Both the position numbers and the translations under genes were made by a program. 64,000 nucleotides of DNA from a virus. Positions 6,623 to 61,473 of the stretch are shown here, in pieces (position 1 is the stretch's first letter; the number at the start of each line of letters is the position of its first letter). The stretch spans positions 1 to 64,000 of the IMG/VR virus record IMGVR_UViG_3300020548_000011. One strand, given 5' to 3'. The notes under the pieces are model-generated. The model was not told the origin of the DNA, did no database searches, and saw nothing but the letters and a program-made list of their open reading frames with translations.

Positions 6623-6699
6623 GGTTCCATAGCTCAACAGGATAGAGCAACCGCCTTCTAAGCGGTAGGTTGAAGGTTCGAATCCTTCTGGGACCGCCA
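6623..6699 (+). tRNA. tRNA-Arg(TCT)
   Basis: Acceptor GGTTCCA pairs with TGGGACC, G73, encoded CCA. Anticodon stem ACCGC/GCGGT with loop CTTCTAA gives anticodon TCT (codon AGA). Normal T-loop TTCGAAT. First tRNA after the array promoter. Confidence 0.95.
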
Positions 6700-6705
6700 T
6701 TTTAT

Positions 6706-6796
6706 GGGGGTGGGTGTAAGACACAAGAGGGACTTATAAACCCTTTAGCGGCCGATTACCGTTCTCGACCAGGAGCGTTACCTGGCACCCCTACCA
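6706..6796 (+). tRNA. class II-like tRNA candidate, anticodon unclear (TAT as read)
   Basis: 91 nt. Acceptor GGGGGTG pairs with CACCCCT, then ACCA. T-stem CCAGG/CCTGG has an odd 7-nt loop AGCGTTA. A long variable region of over 20 nt gives class II size. The anticodon arm AGGGA/ACCCT has one A-A mismatch around loop CTTATAA, which reads TAT (Ile, ATA). A class II body with an Ile anticodon is unexpected, so Leu-like or Tyr-like ancestry, an altered anticodon or a pseudogene are all possible. Confidence 0.6.
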
Positions 6797-6811
6797 ACTT
6801 TGGAGCATGTG

Positions 6812-6940
6812 ATGGAAAAGTTTGAGTTGCTTCTACAGTGTTATAGGTCTGGACAGATGTCCGAGAAGCAATGGCAAGATCATTTGCGAAACGATGAAGG
6901 TCTTGTCGAGTGGTATGTAAACATTCTACAAAATCAATAG
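6812..6940 (+). CDS. hypothetical 42-aa protein
   Basis: ATG with GGAG 7 nt upstream; sequence MEKFELLLQCYRSGQMSEKQ... ending VNILQNQ. It resembles micro-proteins common in phages that carry MSExQW near the middle (from memory). The last 15 nt plus the following terminator match the end of the gene at 48296, so gene end and terminator moved as one block. Confidence 0.65.
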   Translation: MEKFELLLQCYRSGQMSEKQWQDHLRNDEGLVEWYVNILQNQ

Positions 6941-6947
6941 ACTAAGG

Positions 6948-6966
6948 GTGCGTCAAACTGTCGCAT
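6948..6966 (+). terminator. hairpin of the repeated GTGCGACA family, imperfect
   Basis: GTGCGTCA-AAC-TGTCGCAT, 8-bp stem with one T-T mismatch, followed by ATTTTTG. Same cassette as the hairpins at 7056, 46148, 46785, 47124, 48427, 52592 and 53816. Confidence 0.65.
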
Positions 6967-6986
6967 CAGATTTTTGAAAAAAGTTC

Positions 6987-7015
6987 TTGACCCAAGCGAT
7001 TCCTTGTGGTATGGT
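6987..7015 (+). promoter_or_regulatory. sigma-70-like promoter of a short transcript
   Basis: TTGACC (6987-6992), 17 bp, TATGGT (7010-7015). The next terminator is only about 55 nt downstream of the expected start (about 7022) and no credible gene lies between. Confidence 0.75.
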
Positions 7016-7021
7016 ATGCGA

Positions 7022-7081
7022 ACAGTGAGACGAGAGGGTAGAAGTCAAGGACACGGTGCGACAACCTGACGCACTTTTTTT
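7022..7081 (+). ncRNA. candidate small RNA of about 60 nt
   Basis: Bounded by the promoter at 6987-7015 and a hairpin at 7056-7074 (GTGCGACA-ACC-TGACGCAC, one A-A mismatch) followed by seven T residues. The unpaired 5' part (GTGAGACGAGAGGGTAGAAG) is purine-rich and carries AGAGGG. No start codon with a ribosome site is present. It may be a regulatory RNA or a by-product of two adjacent cassettes. Confidence 0.55.
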
Positions 7082-7093
7082 CGAAAAAAGTTC

Positions 7094-7122
7094 TTGACTA
7101 TGCGTTTTGTGTGCTATATAGT
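7094..7122 (+). promoter_or_regulatory. sigma-70-like promoter
   Basis: TTGACT (7094-7099), 17 bp, TATAGT (7117-7122) with TGTGC before the -10. Drives the 7152 gene and probably the tRNAs after it. Nearly the same sequence as the promoter at 6575. Confidence 0.85.
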
Positions 7123-7151
7123 ATGCGAACGATGACAGAAACGAGGTACGG

Positions 7152-7337
7152 ATGAAAGACGAAACCGTAAAGCGTGACTACTACTGGGTGGTAGAGGCAT
7201 CCGATCCTAACGGTCGGATTAACTACCGCAAAGAGTATCATAATAAAGACGGCTCGGCATTCCGAGATTATGCTCGCTTGAAGGCAACTGGCGCTGTATC
7301 TATTCAGCGTAAGTTCAAGGAGTATAAGATTGCCTAG
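7152..7337 (+). CDS. hypothetical 61-aa basic protein
   Basis: ATG preceded by GAGG at 6-10 nt. Begins MKDETVKRDYYWVVEASDPN; basic with many Tyr and Lys. No family recognised. First gene of the second tRNA transcription unit. Confidence 0.75.
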   Translation: MKDETVKRDYYWVVEASDPNGRINYRKEYHNKDGSAFRDYARLKATGAVSIQRKFKEYKIA

Positions 7338-7375
7338 CTACCGCTGTTTGACATTGTGAATAGGGTTATAACTGA

Positions 7376-7452
7376 GGTGCCGTGCCCGGAACTGGTTACG
7401 GGGCGGTCTGCAAAACCGTTTTATGTGGGTTCGAGTCCCATCGGCACCTCCA
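7376..7452 (+). tRNA. tRNA-Cys(GCA)
   Basis: Acceptor GGTGCCG/CGGCACC, T73, CCA. Anticodon loop CTGCAAA gives GCA. Canonical T-loop TTCGAGT. Confidence 0.95.
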
Positions 7453-7540
7453 ATTACTTTATTGATGGGTGCATCCTTATAAGCCTAAAGATATGGCCTT
7501 GAACCATATACGCTTAGGGTGCATCTCTCAATAGAGTAAT
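7453..7540 (+). other. structured spacer between tRNAs
   Basis: Bounded by ATTACTTTATTGA (7453-7465) and TCAATAGAGTAAT (7528-7540), a 13-bp stem with one wobble. Inside are a CCTAA/TTAGG stem, an ATATGG/CCATAT hairpin with a 7-nt loop, and a direct GGTGCATC repeat. Not a tRNA. It could guide precursor processing or be a separate RNA. Confidence 0.45.
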
Positions 7541-7542
7541 AT

Positions 7543-7620
7543 TCGGCGATAGCAATCCTGGTGATCGCACTCGGCTGTTAACCGAGATGAAGGTTGGTTC
7601 GAGTCCAACTCGCCGAGCCA
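7543..7620 (+). tRNA. tRNA-Asn(GTT)
   Basis: Acceptor TCGGCGA/TCGCCGA, G73, CCA. Anticodon arm CTCGG-CTGTTAA-CCGAG gives GTT. T-loop TTCGAGT. The D-arm is weak. Confidence 0.92.
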
Positions 7621-7624
7621 ATAC

Positions 7625-7699
7625 CGCCCATTCGTCTAGTGGCTAGGACGCCTGCCTTTCAAGCAGGAAAAAGGGGATCGAAACCCCTATGGGTGACCA
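7625..7699 (+). tRNA. tRNA-Glu(TTC)
   Basis: Acceptor CGCCCAT/ATGGGTG (one G-T), A73, CCA. Anticodon arm CCTGC-CTTTCAA-GCAGG gives TTC. The D-arm TTCGTCTAGTGGCTAGGA is typical of Glu tRNAs. T-loop ATCGAAA departs from TTC at the first base. Confidence 0.92.
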
Positions 7700-7704
7700 A
7701 TTAT

Positions 7705-7780
7705 GGACCGATAGCTCAGTTGGTAGAGCAGGGGACTCTTAATCCCTTTGTCGTGGGTTCGAATCCCTCTCGGTCTACCA
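7705..7780 (+). tRNA. tRNA-Lys(CTT)
   Basis: Acceptor GGACCGA/TCGGTCT (one A/T end and wobble), A73, CCA. Anticodon loop CTCTTAA gives CTT. Canonical D-arm TAGCTCAGTTGGTAGAGC and T-loop TTCGAAT. Confidence 0.95.
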
Positions 7781-7783
7781 TTT

Positions 7784-7864
7784 GGAACATAACAACAGGA
7801 CGCTGACTCTGCGAAGTAAGATATCGGGTTGATCTCCGAGAAGGTATGGAGAGTGTTATGTTCC
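7784..7864 (+). other. structured spacer closed by a perfect 10-bp stem
   Basis: GGAACATAAC (7784-7793) pairs exactly with GTTATGTTCC (7855-7864). The 61 nt between contain a CTCC/GGAG hairpin. tRNA-sized, but with no CCA, no anticodon arm and no T-arm, so not a normal tRNA. Confidence 0.5.
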
Positions 7865-7875
7865 TACTTTATTTT

Positions 7876-7951
7876 GGATCCGTAGCACAATAGGTGGTGC
7901 AAGGGACTTTTAATCCCAAGGCTGTCGGTTCGAGCCCGACCGGATCCTCCA
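7876..7951 (+). tRNA. tRNA-Lys(TTT)
   Basis: Acceptor GGATCCG/CGGATCC, T73, CCA. Anticodon arm GGGA-CTTTTAA-TCCC gives TTT. T-loop TTCGAGC. Confidence 0.94.
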
Positions 7952-8119
7952 ATAGTCGAGCGAAAGCGGTTAAGTTCATAACGACTCAAAATAAGTATGA
8001 ATGAGAGTTAGACTAAGTTTTCTTCATTTCAGTGAAGAAAAGACTGGGTCGATGGGAAGTCTCTTTCACTAGGATCAAACTTCCCACTAAGTTTTTTGAT
8101 GGTCTGACCGGATCATCCA
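7952..8119 (+). other. structured spacer ending in a tRNA-Lys 3'-end relic
   Basis: No gene. Contains AGTCG/CGACT around two small hairpins, a 9-bp hairpin TTTTCTTCA/TGAAGAAAA (8017-8040) and TGGGAAGT/ACTTCCCA. Its last bases, GACCGGATCATCCA, copy the 3' end of the tRNA-Lys(TTT) just upstream (GACCGGATCCTCCA) without a matching 5' acceptor strand. I read this as a decayed duplicate or an alternative processing site. Confidence 0.5.
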
Positions 8120-8122
8120 ATT

Positions 8123-8196
8123 GCGGGTGTAGCTCAATGGTAGAGCCATAGTCTTCCAAACTAAAGACGAGGGTTCGATTCCCTTCGCCCGCTCCA
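8123..8196 (+). tRNA. tRNA-Gly(TCC)
   Basis: Acceptor GCGGGTG/CGCCCGC, T73, CCA. Anticodon loop CTTCCAA gives TCC (GGA codons). Canonical D-arm TAGCTCAATGGTAGAGC and T-loop TTCGATT. Confidence 0.95.
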
Positions 8197-8200
8197 ATAT

Positions 8201-8281
8201 CTTCACGTATCCCCCTCGGCTACGAACCGAGAGTAAGGTAACTGGATGAAAATGCAGGTTCGACTCCTGCCGTGAAGGCCA
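8201..8281 (+). tRNA. tRNA-Arg(ACG) lacking a D-arm
   Basis: Acceptor CTTCACG/CGTGAAG, G73, CCA. Anticodon arm CTCGG-CTACGAA-CCGAG gives ACG. T-arm GCAGG-TTCGACT-CCTGC. Only TATCCCC (7 nt) lies between acceptor and anticodon stems, so there is no D-arm. Instead 22 nt (AGTAAGGTAACTGGATGAAAAT), which recall a D-loop (AACTGGATGA), lie between the anticodon and T arms. Either a D-armless tRNA or a rearranged gene. Confidence 0.7.
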
Positions 8282-8287
8282 TTTAAT

Positions 8288-8362
8288 GCTGGTAGGTCGG
8301 CAAGATGTCGAGGCGCTCTCATAAGGCGTTATAGGTTGGTTTAATTCCAACTATCAGCACCA
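8288..8362 (+). tRNA. tRNA-Met/Ile2(CAT), copy 1
   Basis: Acceptor GCTGGTA/TATCAGC, A73, CCA. Anticodon loop CTCATAA gives CAT. The T-loop TTTAATT lacks C56. Whether it is Met or a lysidine-modified Ile2 tRNA cannot be told from sequence. Confidence 0.85.
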
Positions 8363-8444
8363 TGTTTGATCTAGATACACAGCCTTTATGGAGTGTCGCA
8401 ATGCTAGACAACATTCGTTCCAAGACGTGAGGGACAGCAAGTTT
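8363..8444 (+). other. structured spacer between tRNAs
   Basis: 82 nt with no gene. TCTAG/CTAGA and ACAC/GTGT arms form an imperfect long hairpin (about 8370-8410). The remainder (TTCCAAGACGTGAGGGACAG) shows nothing recognisable. Confidence 0.4.
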
Positions 8445-8519
8445 TGCGGTCAGGTGGTCCGGAGACCATTCTTGTCTCATAAGCAAGAGAGCCATGTTCG
8501 ACTCATGGGTCCGCATCCA
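8445..8519 (+). tRNA. tRNA-Met/Ile2(CAT), copy 2
   Basis: Acceptor TGCGGTC with GTCCGCA (one T-T mismatch), T73, CCA. Anticodon arm CTTGT-CTCATAA-GCAAG gives CAT. T-arm CCATG-TTCGACT-CATGG. The D-stem GGTC/GACC is unusually GC-rich. Confidence 0.85.
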
Positions 8520-8521
8520 AT

Positions 8522-8595
8522 ATCGGTGAAGTGTTACGGTAGCACGGCAGTCTCCAAAACTGCAAGCCCAGGTTCGACTCCTGGCTCCGGTGCCA
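8522..8595 (+). tRNA. tRNA-Trp(CCA)
   Basis: Anticodon arm GCAGT-CTCCAAA-ACTGC gives CCA. Acceptor ATCGGTG with CTCCGGT (one T-T), G73, CCA. T-loop TTCGACT. Confidence 0.92.
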
Positions 8596-8602
8596 GTTTT
8601 AT

Positions 8603-8678
8603 CTAGGTGTAGCTCAATTGGCAGAGCATCCCGTTTGGGGCGGGAAGGCTGTTGGTTCAAGTCCAGCCACCTAGACCA
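8603..8678 (+). tRNA. tRNA-Pro(TGG)
   Basis: Acceptor CTAGGTG/CACCTAG, A73, CCA. Anticodon arm TCCCG-TTTGGGG-CGGGA gives TGG. Canonical D-arm and T-loop TTCAAGT. Confidence 0.95.
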
Positions 8679-8693
8679 TTTAGGAAGATATAT

Positions 8694-8861
8694 ATGGATG
8701 AAAACTATTTGAAGCGCCAAATGATTTTTCGCTTGACAGTGTTCTTTTTATTGAGTATAGTAATAGGGTTCGTTCTATCGGATTTAAATATCCATAGTCA
8801 GATTAGTGGAGATAATCAGAATGTTCAAGATTTCAGAGGAAACCAAGGCAGCGGCAATTGA
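8694..8861 (+). CDS. small membrane protein inside the tRNA array
   Basis: 55 residues from ATG 8694 with AGGAAG 7 nt upstream (the frame is open further up, but into tRNA-Pro). A single hydrophobic segment at about residues 10-30 (MIFRLTVFFLLSIVIGFVLS) is followed by a polar Asn/Gln/Gly-rich tail. Could be an inner-membrane effector; no family recognised. Confidence 0.65.
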   Translation: MDENYLKRQMIFRLTVFFLLSIVIGFVLSDLNIHSQISGDNQNVQDFRGNQGSGN

Positions 8862-8961
8862 GGAAATGCGTAAAATTCTAGGTGATGGTCCTACAGACAA
8901 TCAGTTGGAAGAGGCATTTGAAGCGGCAGTTGCTATTGTAAAGAAGCAGTTTGGTTTTTAA
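8821..8961 (+). CDS. hypothetical 46-aa protein
   Basis: ATG 8821 with GGAG 11 nt upstream, overlapping the preceding membrane-protein gene in another frame. MFKISEETKAAAIEEMRKIL... is helical, with Ala and Glu throughout. It stops 8 nt before tRNA-Ser. Function unknown. Confidence 0.6.
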   Translation: MFKISEETKAAAIEEMRKILGDGPTDNQLEEAFEAAVAIVKKQFGF

Positions 8962-8969
8962 TGTATAAT

Positions 8970-9060
8970 GGAGAGTTGGCTGAGTGGTCGAAAGCGGCCG
9001 TTTGCTAAATGGTTGGGCCCTAACCCGGTTCCATAGGTTCGAATCCTATACTCTCCGCCA
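8970..9060 (+). tRNA. tRNA-Ser(GCT)
   Basis: 91-nt class II tRNA. Acceptor GGAGAGT/ACTCTCC, G73, CCA. Anticodon loop TTGCTAA gives GCT. Variable arm GGGCCCTAACCCGG region. T-loop TTCGAAT. Confidence 0.94.
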
Positions 9061-9064
9061 ATTA

Positions 9065-9153
9065 GGAGTGAGCAACAGGCAAGGAGTCTGCACCGCTTGG
9101 AAAGCGGATGGTCCCCGAAAGGGGATAGGTGTCGGATACCTGCCACTCCGCCA
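9065..9153 (+). tRNA. tRNA-Ser(GGA)
   Basis: Class II. Acceptor GGAGTGA with CCACTCC (one A-C), G73, CCA. Anticodon arm CCGC-TTGGAAA-GCGG gives GGA. Variable-arm hairpin TCCCC-GAAA-GGGGA. The T-loop GTCGGAT is non-standard. Confidence 0.9.
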
Positions 9154-9159
9154 GTTTAT

Positions 9160-9249
9160 GGAAGAGTAAGCCAGTGGGACTGGCCTTCGTTTCGAAAACG
9201 AAAGGAGCCTGAAATATGGTTTGGGGATCGAGACCTCACTCTTCCGCCA
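9160..9249 (+). tRNA. tRNA-Ser(CGA)
   Basis: Class II. Acceptor GGAAGAG/CTCTTCC, G73, CCA. Anticodon arm TTCGT-TTCGAAA-ACGAA gives CGA. The T-loop ATCGAGA is non-standard. Three Ser tRNAs stand in tandem here. Confidence 0.92.
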
Positions 9250-9254
9250 TTTAT

Positions 9255-9329
9255 GCGGGTTTAGTTCAGAGGTAGAACATCGGTGTTACATACCGAGTGT
9301 CGGTGGTTCGATTCCATCAACCCGCACCA
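9255..9329 (+). tRNA. tRNA-Val(TAC)
   Basis: Acceptor GCGGGTT/AACCCGC, A73, CCA. Anticodon arm TCGGT-GTTACAT-ACCGA gives TAC. T-loop TTCGATT. Confidence 0.94.
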
Positions 9330-9337
9330 GAAAGCAG

Positions 9338-9390
9338 AGTTGTCACGCTTCGTCTATGCTTAATAAGGTAGAATAGCGCACCAGACAACT
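9338..9390 (+). other. structured spacer, 7-bp closing stem
   Basis: AGTTGTC (9338-9344) pairs with GACAACT (9384-9390) around 39 nt. No CCA and no anticodon arm. Same design as the other closed spacers in this array. Confidence 0.4.
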
Positions 9391-9399
9391 TATTATAAT

Positions 9400-9476
9400 G
9401 CGCTTGTAGTCCAATTGGTAGAGGCGCTGGTCTTAGAAACCAGATGTTGTAAGTTCGAATCTTACCAGGCGCACCA
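9400..9476 (+). tRNA. tRNA-Leu(TAG), class I variable loop
   Basis: Acceptor GCGCTTG/CAGGCGC, A73, CCA. Anticodon arm CTGGT-CTTAGAA-ACCAG gives TAG (codon CTA, heavily used in this phage). The variable loop is only 5 nt (ATGTT), whereas bacterial Leu tRNAs normally carry a long class II arm. A clear paralogue of the Leu(CAA) gene at 10197 (shared TAGNCCAATTGGNAGAGGC D-arm). Confidence 0.92.
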
Positions 9477-9557
9477 AACGTAGAGGGATTGTAGGTAGAC
9501 CTGTAAGAAAACCGTTGCGACGAGTTATGACTGGGTTGTAACCTTCATAGATTTAAT
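9477..9557 (+). other. spacer with weak hairpins, no gene
   Basis: 81 nt. Short inverted repeats AGGT/ACCT (9491-9503) and GGTTGTAACC (9533-9542) are visible, but nothing I can call a gene. Confidence 0.35.
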
Positions 9558-9633
9558 GCACTTAGAGGGAGCAGGTGAACCCACTCGGCTGTCAACCGAG
9601 TATCGGCCGGGTCAGTACCGGTTAAGTGCGCCA
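9558..9633 (+). tRNA. tRNA-Asp(GTC)
   Basis: Acceptor GCACTTA/TAAGTGC, G73, CCA. Anticodon arm CTCGG-CTGTCAA-CCGAG gives GTC. The T-arm CCGG-GTCAGTA-CCGG has a non-standard loop. Confidence 0.9.
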
Positions 9634-9638
9634 TTCAC

Positions 9639-9713
9639 GGGCCTGTAGTTCAGGGGGAGAACGTCTGCTTTGCAAGCAGAATGTCGGCGGTTCGATTCCG
9701 TCCAGGTCCACCA
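9639..9713 (+). tRNA. tRNA-Ala(TGC)
   Basis: Acceptor GGGCCTG/CAGGTCC, A73, CCA. Anticodon arm TCTGC-TTTGCAA-GCAGA gives TGC. T-loop TTCGATT. The acceptor has G3 against T70, the G-U identity pair for alanine. Confidence 0.94.
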
Positions 9714-9714
9714 G

Positions 9715-9849
9715 TTTTGTGAGGCAGTATCGATACAAATAATCCGGATGAGCAGAATTGCCACATCGAGGTCGGGAGACGGTGCGAGGCTGTCGTAACC
9801 TTGGGAACCCGGATACTGAAAAGAGGATGCATACTCGTTCCTCACAAAA
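9715..9849 (+). other. structured spacer closed by a 10-bp stem
   Basis: TTTTGTGAGG (9715-9724) pairs exactly with CCTCACAAAA (9840-9849), enclosing 115 nt that include the palindrome GTATCGATAC. A run of A follows on this strand. The largest structured spacer of the array and a candidate stable RNA. Confidence 0.5.
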
Positions 9850-9859
9850 AAAGTTTTAC

Positions 9860-9934
9860 GCTTCGTTCGTCTATTGGCTAGGACACTCGCCTCTCAAGCG
9901 GGAAAGATGGGATCGATACCCATACGAAGCACCA
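9860..9934 (+). tRNA. tRNA-Glu(CTC)
   Basis: Acceptor GCTTCGT/ACGAAGC, A73, CCA. Anticodon loop CTCTCAA gives CTC. T-loop ATCGATA, same ATC start as Glu(TTC). Confidence 0.92.
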
Positions 9935-9939
9935 TTTAT

Positions 9940-10015
9940 GCTTCTCTGGTGTAGGTGATCCGCACGACTGCCTGAAGAGCAGAAGGACTTAGTTTGATTC
10001 TAAGGGGAAGCACCA
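9940..10015 (+). tRNA. tRNA-Phe(GAA)
   Basis: Acceptor GCTTCTC/GGGAAGC, A73, CCA. Anticodon arm CTGC-CTGAAGA-GCAG gives GAA. T-loop TTTGATT lacks C56. The 3' acceptor strand (AGGGGAAG) doubles as the ribosome site of the gene that starts on the final A. Confidence 0.9.
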
Positions 10016-10206
10016 TGATGTTATATTATAAAATCACATATCTTCCGATGTGGAAGAAAGAAGATAAAGAAAACGGTTATGATTGTATAGGTATTGTTAT
10101 TGGTGAGCATCGTTGGTATGATACTGATCCTTATAACAATAATCCAATACATAAGATAAAGTATCATCAGTATTCAGAGTTGATGATAGGTGTTATGCCC
10201 TCGTAG
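10015..10206 (+). CDS. hypothetical 63-aa protein wedged between two tRNAs
   Basis: Two adjacent ATG codons at 10015 and 10018; the first uses the terminal A of tRNA-Phe, and the ribosome site lies in its acceptor stem. The stop codon lies 10 nt inside tRNA-Leu(CAA). Begins MMLYYKITYLPMWKKEDKEN; Tyr-rich, 63 or 62 residues. Translation and tRNA maturation would compete on one transcript. No family recognised. Confidence 0.6.
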   Translation: MMLYYKITYLPMWKKEDKENGYDCIGIVIGEHRWYDTDPYNNNPIHKIKYHQYSELMIGVMPS

Positions 10207-10273
10207 CCCAATTGGCAGAGGCAGTTGATTCAAACCCAACTTAGTGTCAGTTCGAGTCTGACCGAGGGCACCA
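10197..10273 (+). tRNA. tRNA-Leu(CAA), class I variable loop
   Basis: Acceptor GCCCTCG/CGAGGGC, A73, CCA. Anticodon region GTTGA-TTCAAAC-CCAAC gives CAA, with one A-C mismatch closing the loop. 5-nt variable loop (TTAGT). Shares its D-arm with Leu(TAG) at 9400. Confidence 0.85.
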
Positions 10274-10277
10274 ATTT

Positions 10278-10351
10278 GCTGGGTTAGTGTAATGGTAGCA
10301 CCCGAGATTGTGGATCTTGGAGACCAGGATCGATACCTGGACCCAGTGCCA
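10278..10351 (+). tRNA. tRNA-His(GTG)
   Basis: Acceptor GCTGGGT/ACCCAGT (G1-T72 wobble), G73, CCA. Anticodon arm CGAGA-TTGTGGA-TCTTG gives GTG. The universal bacterial G-1:C73 pair is absent, since the base before G1 is T and position 73 is G. Confidence 0.88.
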
Positions 10352-10354
10352 TTT

Positions 10355-10428
10355 GCTCTTGTAGTATAAAGGTATTACACACCCTTGGTAAGGGTGAAAA
10401 CTCGGATCGTTACCGGGCAGGAGCACCA
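10355..10428 (+). tRNA. tRNA-Thr(GGT)
   Basis: Acceptor GCTCTTG/CAGGAGC, A73, CCA. Anticodon arm CACCC-TTGGTAA-GGGTG gives GGT. T-loop ATCGTTA, shared with Ile(GAT). Confidence 0.9.
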
Positions 10429-10432
10429 GATT

Positions 10433-10506
10433 GCCGGCTTAGTATAATGGTATTACAGTTGACTCGTAATCATCAAACAGAGGTTCGATTCCTCTAGCCG
10501 GCACCA
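10433..10506 (+). tRNA. tRNA-Thr(CGT)
   Basis: Acceptor GCCGGCT/AGCCGGC, A73, CCA. Anticodon loop CTCGTAA gives CGT; the stem GTTGA/TCATC has one T-T mismatch. T-loop TTCGATT. Confidence 0.9.
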
Positions 10507-10538
10507 GAATGTAGACAAACGATTGTAAACATAGCCAC

Positions 10539-10567
10539 TTGACATTCCATTCCGGATGTGCTATTAT
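10539..10567 (+). promoter_or_regulatory. sigma-70-like promoter of the phosphatase gene
   Basis: TTGACA (10539-10544), 17 bp, TATTAT (10562-10567). The spacer TTCCATTCCGGATGTGC is nearly the same as at 12168, 48468 and 53854. Confidence 0.9.
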
Positions 10568-10592
10568 AAGACATAATGAGAAAGGAAATGGA

Positions 10593-11066
10593 ATGAATAA
10601 GCGGAACTTGTGGATATTCGATATTGATGGAACGCTGGCTAACAACCTGCACCGTATCAAGCACCTTACCCAGAACACCACGAAGGACTGGGATGCTTTC
10701 TTTGCGGCACAGGATAAGGATGAACCTTACGAAGCCGTTATGCATCTTATGAATACTCTACATAAGACTGGTGATAAGGTTATTGTTATTACTGCCCGTG
10801 ACGAGCGTTTTCGTGCGGTTACTCTCCGTTGGTTGCAGCAGCATTGTGATTACGATTTTCCTGATGGCGATCTTTTCATGCGTAAGAGTGGTGATCGTAC
10901 CGACGATGATAAGATCAAGTTGGATATTCTAAATGAGTATCTTTCTCTGTTTCATCCTCGATATAAAGTGATGGGAGTGTTCGAGGATCGGCATCGTGTT
11001 ATTGATGCGTGGCGTGAAGCTGGTTACTATGTGTTTGAGTGTAACCAGGATCGTGCCGATTTCTAA
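10593..11066 (+). CDS. HAD-family polynucleotide 3'-phosphatase-like protein
   Basis: 157 residues from ATG 10593 (AAAGGA 6-11 nt upstream). HAD motif I is WIFDIDGTLANN near residue 7 (two aspartates), motif II is VIVITARD near 66, and the last motif is VMGVFEDRHRVIDAWREAG near 127. This matches the C-terminal 3'-phosphatase half of T4 polynucleotide kinase, without the kinase. Placed among tRNAs and with its own strong promoter, it may trim 2',3'-cyclic or 3' phosphates during tRNA repair, working with RtcB (50.4 kb). The family is clear; the role is inference. Confidence 0.85.
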   Translation: MNKRNLWIFDIDGTLANNLHRIKHLTQNTTKDWDAFFAAQDKDEPYEAVMHLMNTLHKTGDKVIVITARDERFRAVTLRWLQQHCDYDFPDGDLFMRKSGDRTDDDKIKLDILNEYLSLFHPRYKVMGVFEDRHRVIDAWREAGYYVFECNQDRADF

Positions 11067-11073
11067 AGTTTAC

Positions 11074-11147
11074 TGTCCCTTAGCTCAAAGGTAGAGCAAT
11101 GTGCTGATAACACATAGACACTGGATCGTTACCAGTAGGGACAACCA
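11074..11147 (+). tRNA. tRNA-Ile(GAT)
   Basis: Acceptor TGTCCCT/AGGGACA, A73, CCA. Anticodon arm ATGTG-CTGATAA-CACAT gives GAT. T-loop ATCGTTA. Confidence 0.92.
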
Positions 11148-11151
11148 GTTT

Positions 11152-11264
11152 ATCCTGCTTTCTAGATACGCAGGAGAGGCCTAGCGGGAATAACAGAAGG
11201 GAATGCCCGTGAATATCGGATTGCTGACTTCATTAGCTAAAGGGCTAAACCGATAAGGCGTATG
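11152..11264 (+). other. structured spacer, possible RNA
   Basis: Outer stem TACGC (11167-11171)/GCGTA (11258-11262). Inside, CGGG/CCCG, ATCGG/CCGAT and TTAGC/GCTAA hairpins; a TCCTGC/GCAGGA hairpin lies at the 5' edge. Five nested stems in about 110 nt, no gene. Confidence 0.5.
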
Positions 11265-11270
11265 GAATAT

Positions 11271-11362
11271 GTGTGAGCGGCAACGGCGGTGGTGTTGCAG
11301 CGGACTGTAAATCCGTTCCCTTTGTGGTAACATTGTAGGTTCGAATCCTACCTCACGCACCA
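11271..11362 (+). tRNA. tRNA-Tyr(GTA)
   Basis: 92-nt class II tRNA. Acceptor GTGTGAG/CTCACGC, A73, CCA. Anticodon arm GCGGA-CTGTAAA-TCCGT gives GTA. T-loop TTCGAAT. Confidence 0.94.
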
Positions 11363-11369
11363 TCTTTAT

Positions 11370-11444
11370 TCGGGGATAGTTAAATTGGCATAACGTCGGA
11401 TTTTGGTTCCGACTTTCTAGGTTCGAGTCCTAGTCCCCGATCCA
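11370..11444 (+). tRNA. tRNA-Gln(TTG)
   Basis: Acceptor TCGGGGA/TCCCCGA, T73, CCA. Anticodon arm TCGGA-TTTTGGT-TCCGA gives TTG. T-loop TTCGAGT. Confidence 0.93.
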
Positions 11445-11445
11445 T

Positions 11446-11519
11446 TCAGGAATAGTTCAACGGTAGAACAGCGGACTCTGACTCCGTTAATCTTGGTTCG
11501 AATCCAGGTTCCTGATCCA
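11446..11519 (+). tRNA. tRNA-Gln(CTG)
   Basis: Acceptor TCAGGAA/TTCCTGA, T73, CCA. Anticodon arm GCGGA-CTCTGAC-TCCGT gives CTG. Last tRNA of the array; it follows Gln(TTG) after one base. Confidence 0.93.
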
Positions 11520-34820: not shown

Positions 34821-35123
34821 ATGAGTCAAATAGAACTATCATTCAAGGCAAGAGTTATCAATACCAGAGAAGAACTTGATAACATGATGAAAAGGGATCA
34901 TCTACGCAACTATACAGTAGATGATCTTTTGGTTGTGTCACAGTATTTTGATCGGAAAAACTATCAACCACATATCATATATGCCATAAAAGAATCTAAT
35001 AAGGATTTTATGGCATGGCAAAAGTTTGTTGTACCACTTGAACTTACTGTGAAGGAGAAAGAGAATGAAGAAGTTGCTAAGTCTAGCCCTCGTAACGTTG
35101 CTGACTACACCGGCGTTTGCTGA
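34821..35123 (+). CDS. hypothetical 100-aa protein
   Basis: GGAG upstream of ATG. SFKARVINTREELDNMMKRD..., alpha/beta. Its last 59 nt overlap the signal-peptide region of the next gene in another frame. No family. Confidence 0.7.
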   Translation: MSQIELSFKARVINTREELDNMMKRDHLRNYTVDDLLVVSQYFDRKNYQPHIIYAIKESNKDFMAWQKFVVPLELTVKEKENEEVAKSSPRNVADYTGVC

Positions 35124-35469
35124 AACCAATATCACTGTTAGCAAGTCTCACCAGATGATGCAGGTTGATAGTGATTATGGTTCTTATCAGTGGCCTGTGT
35201 CTACGGCTCGTAAGGGCTTTTATACACCAACTGGCACATTTCATCCGTATTCTCTACAGAGAATGCATTACTCAAAGAAGTATGATAATGCACCTATGCC
35301 GAACTCTATTTTCTTCTCTGGTGGATATGCCATTCATGCTACTCCCCATGTTGGCAATCTTGGTCGGCCTGCTTCTCATGGCTGTGTCAGGCTACATCCT
35401 GCTAATGCTGCCACTCTATATGAAATTGTAAAGCATGATCCAAACACAACTATTAGGATTGTTCCGTGA
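35065..35469 (+). CDS. Exported L,D-transpeptidase (YkuD family)
   Basis: 134 residues. Signal peptide KKLLSLALVTLLTTPAFA-ET. The catalytic block IHATPHVGNLGRPASHGCVR (about residues 91-110) has the His and SHGC-R of YkuD transpeptidases, with Cys as nucleophile; TPTGTFHPY is the upstream substrate-side motif. The domain is complete though minimal. Would form or exchange 3-3 peptidoglycan cross-links, or attach other amines, in the periplasm. Strong ribosome site AAGGAG. Rare in phages as far as I know. Confidence 0.88.
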   Translation: MKKLLSLALVTLLTTPAFAETNITVSKSHQMMQVDSDYGSYQWPVSTARKGFYTPTGTFHPYSLQRMHYSKKYDNAPMPNSIFFSGGYAIHATPHVGNLGRPASHGCVRLHPANAATLYEIVKHDPNTTIRIVP

Positions 35470-35606
35470 CCGACGAAAAGTTTCGCACCATCATGTCTCT
35501 CATCATACTAATCACAATCTTTGGTATGATAGGACTGGCAACTAACTGGGCATTCTCATTAGTCATGCTTATCACGATTACTGCCCTTTTGTTTTCAGCT
35601 TTATAA
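35466..35606 (+). CDS. 46-aa protein with two membrane segments (holin-like candidate)
   Basis: GTG start overlapping the transpeptidase stop. IMSLIILITIFGMIGLA and WAFSLVMLITITALLFS form two hydrophobic helices after a charged N-terminus (MTDEKFR). The stop overlaps the late promoter. May help release wall enzymes, or be an antiholin or immunity factor. Confidence 0.65.
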   Translation: MTDEKFRTIMSLIILITIFGMIGLATNWAFSLVMLITITALLFSAL

Positions 35607-35609
35607 ATA
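35602..35609 (+). promoter_or_regulatory. T4-type late promoter TATAAATA before the PlcP/Agt pair
   Basis: Exact TATAAATA, 26 bp before the GTG at 35635. Confidence 0.82.
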
Positions 35610-35634
35610 GTCTTGCCTTCTAACCAAAGGAGCG

Positions 35635-36378
35635 GTGTTGAAGAACAAAGAGAAAAAGAAGTATCGTGCTATCTTTATATCAGATGTTCACTTGGGCACA
35701 AAATACTCCAATGCTGAAAAGCTATTGGAGTTTCTCAAAGAAACCGAAGCCGATAGATACTACTTGGTTGGTGATATTATTGACGGATGGATGATGCGAA
35801 ACAAAGTCTATTGGCCTCAGGCACATAACGAAGTCATTCAGTTCTTTCTAAAGCAATCCAAGAAGTCAGTAGAAGTCTATTATGTAACTGGCAATCATGA
35901 CGAGTTTCTTCGTGAGTATGCTGGCACCGAGATGGGTAATATCAGATTGGTGAATGAAACTATCCATCATGGTGAAAGTGGTAAGCGATATCTCGTAATT
36001 CATGGCGATCAGTTTGACTTGATTACAACAAACGCCAAGTGGCTTGCTCTTATCGGCGGTTGGTTGTATGATAGAATGATTGATCTAAACAGATATCTAC
36101 AGAACATATATAATTATTTTGGCATCAATGGATTTTCTCTTTCGGCATGGGCGAAACAAAATGTCAAGGAAGCAGTAAACTTTATTGGTGACTATGAAAA
36201 GGTAGTTGCTGATGCTGCCAAAAGGAGATGCGTAGATGGTGTGGTTTGCGGTCATATTCATCATGCTAATATATGTTCTTTTGATGATGTTGAGTATATG
36301 AACTGCGGCGATTGGGTAGAATCCTGCACCGCACTTGTTGAACACTATAATGGAAAGTTTGAGATTATAAGACGATGA
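35635..36378 (+). CDS. PlcP/LpxH-like metallophosphoesterase
   Basis: 247 residues. Calcineurin-type metal motifs: ISDVHLGT (residue 16), VGDIIDGW (47), TGNHDE (90), VIHGDQFD (121) and GHIHHA (207). SLSAWAKQNVKEAVNFIG and MNCGDWVESCTALVEH mark the alphaproteobacterial subfamily annotated as LpxH-like that includes PlcP, a phospholipase C used in phosphate-starvation lipid remodelling. Start is GTG 35635 or, by AGGAG spacing, TTG 35638. Followed by a GT4 gene with ATGA overlap, the bacterial plcP-agt arrangement. I infer release of diacylglycerol from phospholipids; LpxH-type activity is the alternative. Confidence 0.85.
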   Translation: MLKNKEKKKYRAIFISDVHLGTKYSNAEKLLEFLKETEADRYYLVGDIIDGWMMRNKVYWPQAHNEVIQFFLKQSKKSVEVYYVTGNHDEFLREYAGTEMGNIRLVNETIHHGESGKRYLVIHGDQFDLITTNAKWLALIGGWLYDRMIDLNRYLQNIYNYFGINGFSLSAWAKQNVKEAVNFIGDYEKVVADAAKRRCVDGVVCGHIHHANICSFDDVEYMNCGDWVESCTALVEHYNGKFEIIRR

Positions 36379-37373
36379 CGAACATTACAATTTTTACCGA
36401 TGCTTGGGAACCACAAATCAATGGAGTTGTCACTACACTAAAGACGACAATCAAGCATCTTGAAAAGCGTGGTTATGATGTAAAAGTTGTCCATCCTGGT
36501 ATGTTCAAGGTGACAGTTCCACTACAACCATCAACGGGCATTTATATGCCACTTTTGCCTATGGGTATCGCTGATGAATATGTGAAGAATGCGAACCACA
36601 TTCACATAGCAACAGAAGGAAGCATAGGTCTTGCCGCTAGACATTATTGCAAGAAGTATAAACGACGCTATACCACATCGTTCCATACTAAGTATCCAGA
36701 TTATCTTTATGAACATGCTTATATACCACCAAGAATTACTGGTCGGTATTTTCGTTGGTTCCATAGAAACAGCGATTGTGTTATGGTTCCTACCCCCGCC
36801 ATGGTTGATTACTGTAATTCATTGGGTATCAAAAACCTAAAGTTATGGTCTCGTGGTGTTGATACTGACCTTTTCAAACCCGATCCGAATTGGAAGAAGA
36901 TGGAAGTAGAAAAGGTCATTCGTGCTATCTATGTAGGTAGAGTATCAGCCGAGAAAAACCTAGAAGCATTTCTAAAGATACCGAATGAAAGTATTGTGAA
37001 GTTTATTATTGGTGATGGTCCACAGTTAGAAGAATACAAAGCAAAATATCCAGATGCCATATTCCTAGGCAGAAAAACTCCAGAAGAAATCGCTAGAACA
37101 TTACAGGTACAAGATGTGTTCGCATGGCCATCCATGACAGATACATTTGGCCTTGTCGTGCTTGAAGCGATGGCATGTGGTCTACCTGTTGCTGCTTTTT
37201 ATAATGATGTGAATGAATATATCATTGAAGAAGGCAAGTCTGGTTATCTTGATGATGATCTGGAACATGCCATTTGTAGGGCATTCCATCTCAAACGAGA
37301 AGATGCTGTAGCGAGAGCAAAGCATTTCTCATGGGAAGCAGCAACCGATCAGTTTGTAGAAAATTTGGTATGA
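36375..37373 (+). CDS. GT4-family glycosyltransferase, Agt-like
   Basis: 332 residues with a GT-B fold. ITIFTDAWEPQINGVVTTLK at the N-terminus is the GT4 acceptor-side signature; SFHTKYPDYLYEHAYIP follows near 95; IYVGRVSAEKNLEAFL near 182 starts the donor domain; and DTFGLVVLEAMACGLPV near 258 holds the E-type donor motif. Bacterial relatives beside PlcP (Agt) glycosylate diacylglycerol to glycolipid. With the preceding gene it would replace membrane phospholipid by glycolipid. Substrate is inferred from the pair. Confidence 0.85.
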   Translation: MTNITIFTDAWEPQINGVVTTLKTTIKHLEKRGYDVKVVHPGMFKVTVPLQPSTGIYMPLLPMGIADEYVKNANHIHIATEGSIGLAARHYCKKYKRRYTTSFHTKYPDYLYEHAYIPPRITGRYFRWFHRNSDCVMVPTPAMVDYCNSLGIKNLKLWSRGVDTDLFKPDPNWKKMEVEKVIRAIYVGRVSAEKNLEAFLKIPNESIVKFIIGDGPQLEEYKAKYPDAIFLGRKTPEEIARTLQVQDVFAWPSMTDTFGLVVLEAMACGLPVAAFYNDVNEYIIEEGKSGYLDDDLEHAICRAFHLKREDAVARAKHFSWEAATDQFVENLV

Positions 37374-37714
37374 ATGAACTTGACGAAATCTTACTTGAAC
37401 AACTCCACATTTCAATGAGAAATAGAAAGCATCTAAGGAGAGTTTCTAAACTTTTGAGAAATGATCCTCAAGTGGAGAAGGGCAAACTTTACATAGAAGG
37501 AAGAATAAAGTTTTTTGAGACTATGATAGAAGATAAGTCTTTACTAAAGAAAAGACCCAGAAGAAAGAAAATAAAAGAGTCGGACTTGTTGGCTAGAAAT
37601 CTAGTTTATGAATGGTATAGAAATGTGTTTATCGCAGCGGCTTTCAGTTATAAGATGTTCTCCGATTCTGTCACAAGTTACATGTCTTATTTCAGAAAGG
37701 ATAAAGAAGGATGA
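37370..37714 (+). CDS. hypothetical 114-aa basic helical protein
   Basis: ATG overlaps the glycosyltransferase stop. ILLEQLHISMRNRKHLRRVS..., KKRPRRKKIKESD: strongly basic and helical. No family. Coupled to the lipid genes by ATGA. Confidence 0.7.
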   Translation: MNELDEILLEQLHISMRNRKHLRRVSKLLRNDPQVEKGKLYIEGRIKFFETMIEDKSLLKKRPRRKKIKESDLLARNLVYEWYRNVFIAAAFSYKMFSDSVTSYMSYFRKDKEG

Positions 37715-37929
37715 CCGGAGAAAGAGCGGCCATATTTGGACAGTTTATTGAACAGTATGTTGAAAGCGATGTTGGTGTATTAGAACGAGAAGAAACATAC
37801 AGGATTCTATTAGAAGTTTTGGAAGAGTTTGAAGTCAAAGGCATGGAAGGATATCTTGATATCGATCCGGCATTTGATGTAGTGTGGAACGAAAAGTATC
37901 CGCCAGAGGTAGAAGCCTTTGAAGATTGA
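37711..37929 (+). CDS. hypothetical 72-aa acidic protein
   Basis: ATGA overlap upstream. EQYVESDVGVLEREETYRIL, helical and acidic. No family. Confidence 0.68.
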   Translation: MTGERAAIFGQFIEQYVESDVGVLEREETYRILLEVLEEFEVKGMEGYLDIDPAFDVVWNEKYPPEVEAFED

Positions 37930-50390: not shown

Positions 50391-51617
50391 ATGGCTTATC
50401 AGTTCGTCCAAGGTCGTGGTGCGCCGCTCAAGATGTGGTGCGAAGGTGTTGAGGTCGAAGCCGACGCTCGCACGCAGTTGGAAAATATAGCGTCCTTGCC
50501 GTTCGTGTATAAGCATGTAGCGGTTATGCCGGACGTTCATCTTGGCAAGGGTGCTACGGTTGGTTCTGTTATAGCAACGAAGGGTGCTGTGGTTCCGGCT
50601 GCGGTTGGTGTTGATATCGGTTGCGGTATGATGGCTGTTCGCTTGTCACTGACGGCGAACGATTTACCGGATAATCTTGCTCCGCTTCGTTCTGCTATCG
50701 AGGCCGCAGTGCCGCATGGTCGCACGGACAACGGTGGTAAGAACGACGAAGGAACGTGGAACTCGAACTTTGCGTCCCGTTCTGCCATAGATGCTTGGGC
50801 GGTGTTGAAGTCTCGTTATGACGCTATCTTAGCAAAGCATCCGAAGATTGCTTCTCATAAGACCTTCGAGTTTATGGGAACGCTTGGCACGGGTAATCAC
50901 TTTATCGAATTGTGTCTGGACGAGGCCGACTATGTGTGGGTAATGCTACACTCTGGTTCTCGTGGTGTTGGTAACAAGATAGGTCAGTATTTCATCGAAG
51001 CTGCAAAGCGTGAGATGGAACGCTATCATATCTTGCCGTATCTGCCGGATCAGGACTTGTCCTATCTGGTAGAAAACACGACGCTATTCGATGATTATGT
51101 GGAGGCTGTATCGTGGGCACAGGAGTTTGCTGCCCTCAACCGTCAGGTTATGATGGACGCTGTGCTAAAGGTTCTTCGTGGGCGTTTGCCGGCATTCGTT
51201 GTATCTGACGAAAAGGCTGTGAACTGCCATCACAACTATATCTCCAAGGAGAACCACTTTGGAGAAAATGTGTATGTGACCCGCAAGGGTGCTGTTCGGG
51301 CTCGTAAGAACGACCTCGGTATCATACCGGGTTCGATGGGAACGGGTTCGTTTATCGTTCGTGGTCTTGGTAATCATGAGTCGTTTTGTTCATGTTCTCA
51401 CGGCGCTGGTCGTCGTATGTCTCGCAATGCGGCACGTAAGGCTATCACGCTAGAGGATCATATCAAGGCGACCGAGGGTATCGAGTGCCGTAAGGATGCC
51501 GATGTTATCGACGAGTCGCCGGCTGCTTACAAGGATATCGGTGCGGTCATGGCTGCCCAGGATGACCTTGTTGAGATTGTCCACCGTCTCCGTCAGGTGG
51601 TCAACATCAAAGGTTGA
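50391..51617 (+). CDS. rtcB: RtcB, tRNA/RNA ligase
   Basis: 408 residues. VMPDVHLGKGATVGSVIATK (about 45), GVDIGCGMMAVR (about 73, metal Asp and Cys), GTGNHFIEL (about 164), MLHSGSRGVGNKIG (about 184), NCHHNYISKE (about 276) and CSCSHGAGRRMSR (about 335, His that takes GMP) are all present. Joins 2',3'-cyclic or 3'-phosphate ends to 5'-OH ends. With the tRNA array and the 3'-phosphatase at 10.6 kb, it may repair tRNAs cut by host anticodon nucleases. Confidence 0.96.
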   Translation: MAYQFVQGRGAPLKMWCEGVEVEADARTQLENIASLPFVYKHVAVMPDVHLGKGATVGSVIATKGAVVPAAVGVDIGCGMMAVRLSLTANDLPDNLAPLRSAIEAAVPHGRTDNGGKNDEGTWNSNFASRSAIDAWAVLKSRYDAILAKHPKIASHKTFEFMGTLGTGNHFIELCLDEADYVWVMLHSGSRGVGNKIGQYFIEAAKREMERYHILPYLPDQDLSYLVENTTLFDDYVEAVSWAQEFAALNRQVMMDAVLKVLRGRLPAFVVSDEKAVNCHHNYISKENHFGENVYVTRKGAVRARKNDLGIIPGSMGTGSFIVRGLGNHESFCSCSHGAGRRMSRNAARKAITLEDHIKATEGIECRKDADVIDESPAAYKDIGAVMAAQDDLVEIVHRLRQVVNIKG

Positions 51618-60650: not shown

Positions 60651-60759
60651 CCTGTCAGAAGAAATACCTTCAAAAAAGTTTAGAGGTCGTGCCCGTAACA
60701 AGGCATCGACCTCTTTTGTTTATGATAATGTGACTAACAATAACAACAAGGTAAAATAT

Positions 60760-61473
60760 ATGTCACGTAAGAATAGAAGAAATAGCAAGCAGCAAAATCA
60801 GCAAAACTTTGAGGAGCATAACCACTTTCAATTGCGTCACATTAAACCACTAACAGTAAACCAACAGAGAGTGTGGGACGCATATTCGAATGGCTCCAAT
60901 CTTATGCTGCATGGCTATGCCGGTACCGGTAAAACCTTTCTATCATCATATCTAGCACTAAAGGAGGTGTTATCAGACGACATATATAAGAGGGTCGTTA
61001 TCATCCGCTCCGTAGTTCCAACCAGAGACATGGGCTTTCTACCAGGAACCGATAAACAAAAAGCGGAAGTTTACGAACAACCCTACCAAGAAATTTGTGA
61101 CGATTTATTTGGTCGTGGAGATGGATGGCGTATATTGAAACTAAAGAGAATGGTAGAGTTTACCACTACATCATTTCTTCGTGGCACTACATTCAATGAT
61201 TCCATTATCATTGTTGACGAGTGTAACAACATGACCTTCCAAGAGGTCGATACAGTTATGACACGTATTGGTAATAACTCTAAGATTATCTTTTGTGGTG
61301 ACTATCGCCAGACCGATCTACATAAACCACATGATAGAACTGGCATCAAAGAACTGATGGCTATTACTCGCCGTATGTCATCATTTGAGCATGTCGAATT
61401 TGGTATTGAGGACATCGTTCGCTCCGGTGTCGTCAAAGAATACATCATTCAGAAAACTGAAATGGGACTATGA
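60760..61473 (+). CDS. phoH: PhoH-like P-loop ATPase
   Basis: 237 residues from ATG 60760 (AAGG 8 nt upstream). GTG 60730, and a CTG at 60652 with AAGGAG at the right distance, are in-frame alternatives that would add 10 or 36 residues. Walker A MLHGYAGTGKTFLSSY near 53, RSVVPTRDMGFLPG near 95, Walker B DSIIIVDECNNMTF near 162, FCGDYRQTDL near 192. Phosphate-starvation-type NTPase associated with RNA metabolism, common in marine T4-type phages. Confidence 0.93.
   Translation: MSRKNRRNSKQQNQQNFEEHNHFQLRHIKPLTVNQQRVWDAYSNGSNLMLHGYAGTGKTFLSSYLALKEVLSDDIYKRVVIIRSVVPTRDMGFLPGTDKQKAEVYEQPYQEICDDLFGRGDGWRILKLKRMVEFTTTSFLRGTTFNDSIIIVDECNNMTFQEVDTVMTRIGNNSKIIFCGDYRQTDLHKPHDRTGIKELMAITRRMSSFEHVEFGIEDIVRSGVVKEYIIQKTEMGL

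Follow-up and report, generated by a model that had tools for sequence, protein, structure and literature searches.

A probable phage operon for membrane lipid renovation: coupled plcP- and agt-like genes in a T4-like virus

The stretch of DNA analyzed here, referred to as the window, comprises the first 64,000 nucleotides (nt) of the 67,554-base IMG/VR virus record IMGVR_UViG_3300020548_000011. It contains two overlapping genes, plcP and an agt-like gene, which probably provide a phage with both steps of lipid renovation, the conversion of phospholipid to glycolipid with a gain of phosphorus. We infer the enzyme activities, the sugar, the host, the timing and the purpose from the sequences. 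PlcP would split host glycerophospholipid into diacylglycerol (DAG) and a phospho-alcohol head group, and the Agt-like family 4 glycosyltransferase (GT4) would use a UDP-sugar to add a hexose or hexuronic acid to DAG, so that a bilayer lipid free of phosphorus is formed. In this way the membrane would be kept intact while phosphorus is released, and host enzymes could turn the head-group phosphorus into nucleotides for progeny DNA. An Escherichia coli cell contains about 2x10^7 lipids; with a 165-kb relative and two phosphorus atoms per base pair, a plausibility estimate puts the lipid phosphorus near the need of 50-100 progeny genomes. Bacterial plcP-agt operons yield glucosyl- and glucuronosyl-DAG at low phosphate (PMC4796936, PMC8528852; papers are cited by PMC number), and phospholipid hydrolysis and glycosyl-DAG synthesis are predicted for the two phage proteins as well.

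Sequence comparison firmly places the first protein as a PlcP-type (LpxH2-type) phosphoesterase and not LpxH. When 54 viral and 45 bacterial rows were put in a tree with four rows of LpxH, LpxH split off with support 100* and the window protein was nested on the PlcP side. Matches with fewer than about 205 PlcP residues covered, or with stops, had been excluded, and near-copies had been collapsed at 92% (viral) and 85% (bacterial) and, for the tree, at 80% and 75%, which left 54 of 85 viral and 45 of 80 bacterial rows; the LpxH loci L249 and L251 were omitted because of wrong orientation. To our knowledge, none of the bacterial rows is an experimentally studied PlcP. A second tree without eight long rows and all LpxH rows placed the window protein in a clade whose 27 rows are all from phages (95*). 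The LpxH model TIGR01854 gave 50.8 bits with the window protein (cut-off 190.35) and another LpxH model 56.2 bits (cut-off 134), and in the five genomes that carry both genes LpxH proper scored 278-336 bits and the paralogue 40-50 bits. The metal-ligand motif D-x-H, GD, GNH(D/E), H, GHxH is complete, with His in the third block (ligands D16, H18, D46, N86, H87, H122, H206 and H208). At the LpxH-specific Arg position, all 54 phage and all 45 bacterial PlcP rows have His, while the four LpxH rows have Arg. This His of the superfamily is replaced by Arg only in LpxH (PMC5016852, PMC3087551). The LpxH2 paralogue of the same papers includes proteins of Pseudomonas aeruginosa and Sinorhizobium meliloti, which, going by PMC8528852, would be those later named PlcP; the family name used here rests on PMC4796936, PMC8528852 and PMC3087551.

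Thus, although LpxH shares the metallophosphoesterase fold with its insertion and provides the best PDB matches, it was rejected as the identity of the first protein by the tree split, the score far below cut-off and the His in place of Arg. The model of PlcP (mean predicted local distance difference test score, pLDDT, 84, with a weak insertion) gave template-modeling (TM) scores of 0.54-0.60 to LpxH, and a search of solved structures returned LpxH only, as seven distinct sequences. The original prediction had named an alphaproteobacterial PlcP with the motifs HGDQFD, GHIHHA and MNCGDWVESC. All three motifs lie in the plcP open reading frame (ORF) and the placement with PlcP, away from LpxH, stands; the taxon is too narrow, since the nearest cellular relatives listed are Hyphomicrobiales and Pseudomonas. 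A single phage clade for PlcP received p 0.043 in the approximately unbiased (AU) test, with phage_L161 not counted on the phage side, so that more than one transfer is likely, if not firmly shown. One PlcP from a bacterial genome (L321, G227) is nested among the viral rows and could reflect a prophage or transfer back.

The Agt-type identity of the second protein is well motivated by its residues and, less surely, by its position among relatives; we hold it with fair confidence. The SAR11 Agt (GTcp) requires the dyad His104-Asp256 and residues of the donor and DAG sites for activity (PMC8231724). The window GT is identical to GTcp at 13 of 14 functional residues, nine of them with the same numbering (G16, G82, G85, H104, R163, R190, K195, D256, T257, F258, G259, E264 and W320, where R163 corresponds to R160 in the window protein), and T162 is replaced by Ser. 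Of the four residues that make polar contacts with docked DAG in GTcp, three are unchanged and one is Ser instead of Thr. The Agt motifs GRVAXEKN and FPSXTDTFG occur as GRVSAEKN and WPSMTDTFG, each one letter off. Among 107 viral and 86 bacterial GT rows with at least 290 residues matched, the set used for both the tree and the residue counts, His104, Arg190, Lys195, Thr257, Gly259 and Glu264 are invariant, and Asp256 is kept in 95 viral and 83 bacterial rows, the remainder having Glu. The window GT groups with GTs adjoining bacterial plcP. With six control rows included, two bacterial GT rows fell outside the node that unites viral and bacterial GTs, and E. coli WaaG, WaaB, WcaL, WcaC and WcaI had very long branches near the root. 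The model has a GT-B fold (pLDDT 90) closest to MshA and BshA, and solved structures retrieved with the protein were various GT4-type enzymes. A defense-system function, raised by a weak GT4-conflict Pfam match below cut-off, was dropped since PADLOC gave no match for the three proteins submitted. In the record L262, named Acinetobacter phage MD-2021a, the stretch examined contains prc, iscX, ndk and a radical SAM gene, and it resembles bacterial chromosome rather than phage DNA.

The pairing of plcP with a GT is beyond chance and forms a conserved viral unit, confirming the proposal that the two genes belong together. An IMG/VR scan with the GT alone returned 46 loci, many of them on near-copy contigs, and in 42 of these plcP lies at most 250 nt in front. 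Two of the other four have plcP elsewhere in the locus and two are cut before its position, which gives plcP in 44 of 44 GT relatives with upstream DNA. Starting from PlcP, we collected 109 distinct viral loci from IMG/VR scans and three phages-collection records; one viral scan and the bacterial genome scan contributed the best 80 loci of longer lists. A GT4 of the window type accompanies plcP in 64 of the 109 loci (not adjacent in L041 and L043). PlcP and GT distances are correlated (r 0.86, n=58, 0 of 999 permutations as high). In 21 loci, a family 2 glycosyltransferase (GT2) lies within about 210 nt of plcP, directly upstream or downstream, and this is a second, different PlcP-GT combination in viruses; the class was assigned by Pfam Glycos_transf_2 (101.6 bits) for L118 and by BLAST clustering for the other 20. 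L098, L103, L111, L114, L119 and L122 are also among the GT2-paired loci. A 94-residue hydrophobic ORF just downstream of plcP, within the GT4 match stretch of nine loci (e.g., L139 8953-9234), may be a mere alternative reading frame.

The same arrangement occurs in bacteria. Among the best 80 bacterial loci, with PlcP at about 48-55% identity (Hyphomicrobiales, Pseudomonas and others), 36 carry, 48-338 nt downstream of plcP, a GT4 belonging to the same family. In a sample of 249 genomes from the phylum to which a Bradyrhizobium genome belongs, 79 had a PlcP match at 1e-25.

The carrier is a T4-like phage of a bacterium that is probably Gram-negative and heterotrophic. The window encodes a T4-like gene set with DNA polymerase (1046.6 bits), UvsX, DnaB-type helicase and primase, together with T4-type RNase H and ThyX. 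For the polymerase, the best 20 of 2588 matching phage records are Synechococcus myophages with 47.8-49.2% identity. Of 34 records examined for the T4-type major capsid protein Gp23, 17 encode it, among them 15 of the 31 IMG/VR relatives and both isolates; it was not detected on the window's own fragment or its three closest relatives tested. The pair thus sits on a real phage contig and has cellular homologues with a metabolic role, as expected of auxiliary metabolic genes.

The original prediction placed the pair behind a late promoter, and an exact TATAAATA indeed precedes it (Table 1). The T4 late promoter is TATAAATA without a -35 element, and both sequence and spacing fit; the overall count is not above chance, with six copies in the window against 3.7 expected and 15 of 100 shuffles as high. 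Of the five copies on the plus strand, three are followed by an ORF start after 36-37 nt. For promoter and Pho-box comparisons, only upstream stretches that differ in their last 60 nt were kept; among the 23 of the close clade, the element lies 24-36 nt upstream of plcP as exact TATAAATA in seven and as another NATAAATA in six. A late promoter is plausible from sequence and spacing. In some relatives, however, the AT-rich element stands at the -10 position of a PhoB-type promoter, and in others plcP follows phoH with no late-type element.

A Pho box consists of two 7-nt repeats (CTGTMAY) with a 4-nt spacer, placed before the -10 element. At p <= 0.01, the scan for it was positive in 8 of 103 viral upstreams, compared with 70 of 147 bacterial plcP upstreams that served as positive control. 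Of 361 distinct viral NATAAATA sites, five have a Pho-like 18-mer (at least 13/17) exactly 11 nt upstream, and all five (L022, L025, L026, L028 and L037) stand directly before plcP; at 12 nt there are two, L034 before plcP and L136 elsewhere. The 11-nt sites are homologous and hence not independent, and, judged singly, those in L025, L022, L037 and L028 are no better than p 0.03-0.09. Another group (L131, L139, L150, L157 and L159; p 0.005-0.010) has 7-4-7 repeats, a gap of about 11 nt, TAAATA and an ATG within a few nt. In part of the phage group, Pho-box-like repeats, followed after about 11 nt by a TATAAATA-like element, could thus form a dual promoter, one that would serve host PhoB early in starved cells and then the phage late sigma factor. 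We tentatively suggest, as a possibility that we would not yet favor, that the lipid-renovation module is carried whole by phages and can be switched by host phosphate signaling, so that the membrane becomes a regulated phosphorus store for phage DNA.

The surroundings of plcP in relatives support the phosphate theme that the original prediction had based on phoH in the window. PhoH is encoded there, though far from plcP, and phoH directly precedes plcP in five other loci (L060, L063, L065, L068 and L078). In SAR11 phage Mosig (L001 4912-6747), plcP and an annotated phosphate transporter gene point away from each other across a 150-nt gap; with 143 bits for PstS, below the cut-off of 206.6, the transporter gene is pstS-like. 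The gap contains two TTAAC repeats 11 nt apart. In Synechococcus phage S-SRM01 (L002 1837-3499), the annotation splits the D1 gene in two around an endonuclease gene, an intron-like arrangement.

Several observations weigh against a phage-encoded lipid renovation that serves phosphorus supply. No NCBIfam model matched either protein above cut-off. Glu occupies position 256 in 12 of the 107 viral GT rows, and the Asp256 to Glu exchange in GTcp removed more than 90% of activity (PMC8231724). An Acinetobacter MgtA-like control GT, annotated as a lipopolysaccharide (LPS) transferase, shares 12 of the 14 Agt residues, differing by Glu at 256 and Gly at 162. In the tree it lies within the viral rows, long-branched (3.03), and the node uniting viral and bacterial GTs, with support 94 and no star, includes it. 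This sharing makes the acceptor of the window GT less certain, and the expectation that the GT would fall with Agt is therefore mostly but not fully supported: it joins plcP-linked GTs and keeps the Agt residues, but so largely does MgtA. Neither type of GT was found near plcP in 24 of the 109 viral loci (six cut short), including L001-L003 of the phages collection, and no GT4 was found downstream within the DNA examined in the other 44 of the 80 bacterial loci. The window itself has no Pho box: its plcP upstream had p 0.52 in the scan, and no 18-mer reached at least 15/17 on either strand. Were TATAAATA a genuine late promoter, the enzymes would be made late for supplying DNA synthesis. Finally, host phosphatases are needed because the product of PlcP is a phospho-alcohol and not free phosphate.

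These points leave room for other roles, of which a change of the envelope is the main rival. The glycolipid would alter surface charge or receptor presentation, excluding superinfecting phages or tuning lysis, and phosphorus would be a by-product. The late-type promoter element, the YkuD L,D-transpeptidase-like gene and short hydrophobic ORF just upstream, and a Ruegeria paper dealing with aminolipids and phage attachment (PMC9938194) are in line with this. That plcP is paired with GTs of two different families would also suit a requirement for a lipid with a sugar head. The occurrence of plcP without either GT does not, and phoH before plcP in five relatives and the pstS-like gene of Mosig point to phosphate. 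We regard envelope change as rather improbable as the explanation, and phosphorus supply as the more likely purpose than envelope defense; the two could act together.

An alteration of LPS, by an LpxH-like lipid A enzyme and an LPS glycosyltransferase, would agree with the public annotation of relatives as UDP-2,3-diacylglucosamine hydrolase, with LpxH as the closest solved structure and with the MgtA-like protein as the nearest of the six control GTs. It is very unlikely in view of the separation of PlcP from LpxH in tree, diagnostic residue and score, and of the remote position of the five E. coli GTs. Equally doubtful is the re-use of the PlcP fold and the GT on nucleic acid or virion proteins, as in glycosylation of DNA bases or capsid. 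Phages do use GTs on DNA, and in PHROG the phosphoesterase matched a DNA repair exonuclease family best (44.4 bits); on the other hand, the bacterial relatives keep the two genes close together and in the same order in 36 of the 80 best loci, and the DAG contacts of GTcp are largely retained. Lipid renovation for phosphorus supply hence remains the preferred reading.

The layout of the locus is summarized in Table 1. The 4-nt overlap between the phosphoesterase and GT4 genes, as originally described, is an ATGA that couples their translation, and every junction of the four-gene chain from plcP onward has the same overlap. For plcP, the TTG start is most likely rather than the GTG, because of the ribosome-binding site and because the TTG position is kept in relatives: it is at the same place in L023, L025, L028 and L037 and one codon later in L022, and the GTG is absent there. 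Pfam assigned Metallophos (52 bits) to the first protein and Glycos_transf_1 (66.6 bits) and Glyco_transf_4 (66.3 bits) to the second, and neither of the two downstream ORFs matched any Pfam or PHROG family. Just upstream of plcP are the YkuD-like gene (35065-35469, 66.5 bits), a small protein with a signal-like N-terminus and homologues near plcP in 10 of 109 viral loci, and the short hydrophobic ORF. Elsewhere, the window carries an array of 26 tRNA genes (6623-11519) and an RtcB RNA ligase gene (50391-51617, 430 bits).

Table 1. Features of the plcP-agt locus and the phoH gene in the window
Feature	Position	Strand	Remarks
Promoter element TATAAATA	35602..35609	+	T4-type late element or -10 of a host-type promoter; 36 nt before plcP start
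Ribosome-binding site AAAGGAG	35627..35633	+	Similar AAGGAG in several relatives
plcP	35638..36378	+	Predicted PlcP/LpxH2-type metallophosphoesterase, 246 aa; TTG start, GTG 35635 in frame
agt-like GT4 glycosyltransferase	36375..37373	+	332 aa; ATGA overlap with plcP
Coupled downstream ORF	37370..37714 (mechanical listing from 37331)	+	About 114 aa; homologues near plcP in 14 of 109 loci
Second coupled downstream ORF	37711..37929	+	72 aa; ATGA overlap
phoH	60730..61473	+	Pfam 151.6 bits; far from plcP here, directly before plcP in five relatives

The closest known system is the plcP-agt operon of SAR11 HTCC7211, Erythrobacter sp. NAP1 and P. aeruginosa (PA3219-PA3218), which has the same two families in the same order and equally close together. 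The bacterial pairs examined share 50-55% (PlcP) and 35-43% (GT) identity with the window pair. Unlike them, the window pair is borne by a T4-like phage, is ATGA-coupled, follows a T4-late-type element without a Pho box, and has its PlcP in a phage-only clade. T4-like marine phages carry the phosphate auxiliary genes phoH, pstS and phoA, and phage genes of this kind are known for uptake and starvation response. They share with plcP-agt the phage location and the phosphate theme, sometimes adjacent to plcP; whereas they are linked to uptake or starvation, plcP-agt would draw phosphorus from host membrane lipid.

PlcP homologues are also present in cultured phages, as gene 00120 of Mosig EXVC030M (45% identity) and the 'UDP-2,3-diacylglucosamine diphosphatase' of S-SRM01 (37%). 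Both are annotated as lipid A enzymes, and no homologue of the window GT was found in the stretches around plcP. In the Mosig genome paper, a term search for lipid, diacylglucosamine and phosph- gave no match. Among the viral genes tabulated for a lake virome is lpxH (K03269; PMC9611531). Auxiliary genes on contigs with glycosyltransferases were dropped from a global catalogue of the ocean (PMC11360552), an exclusion that would hide plcP-GT pairs. Full-text searches, mostly of open-access papers and with long result lists partly covered, found no report of plcP or the plcP-agt pair in phages. What is new is an auxiliary phage operon with both lipid-renovation steps; the enzymes and the bacterial operon were already known.

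Some viral genes filed under lipid A synthesis may therefore be PlcP, and Pelagibacter phage Mosig offers a cultured carrier of plcP. If the proposed function is true, the membrane itself would be a phosphorus source for the phage and the lipids of infected cells would be altered, linking viral infection to the glycolipids that are seen under phosphate stress.

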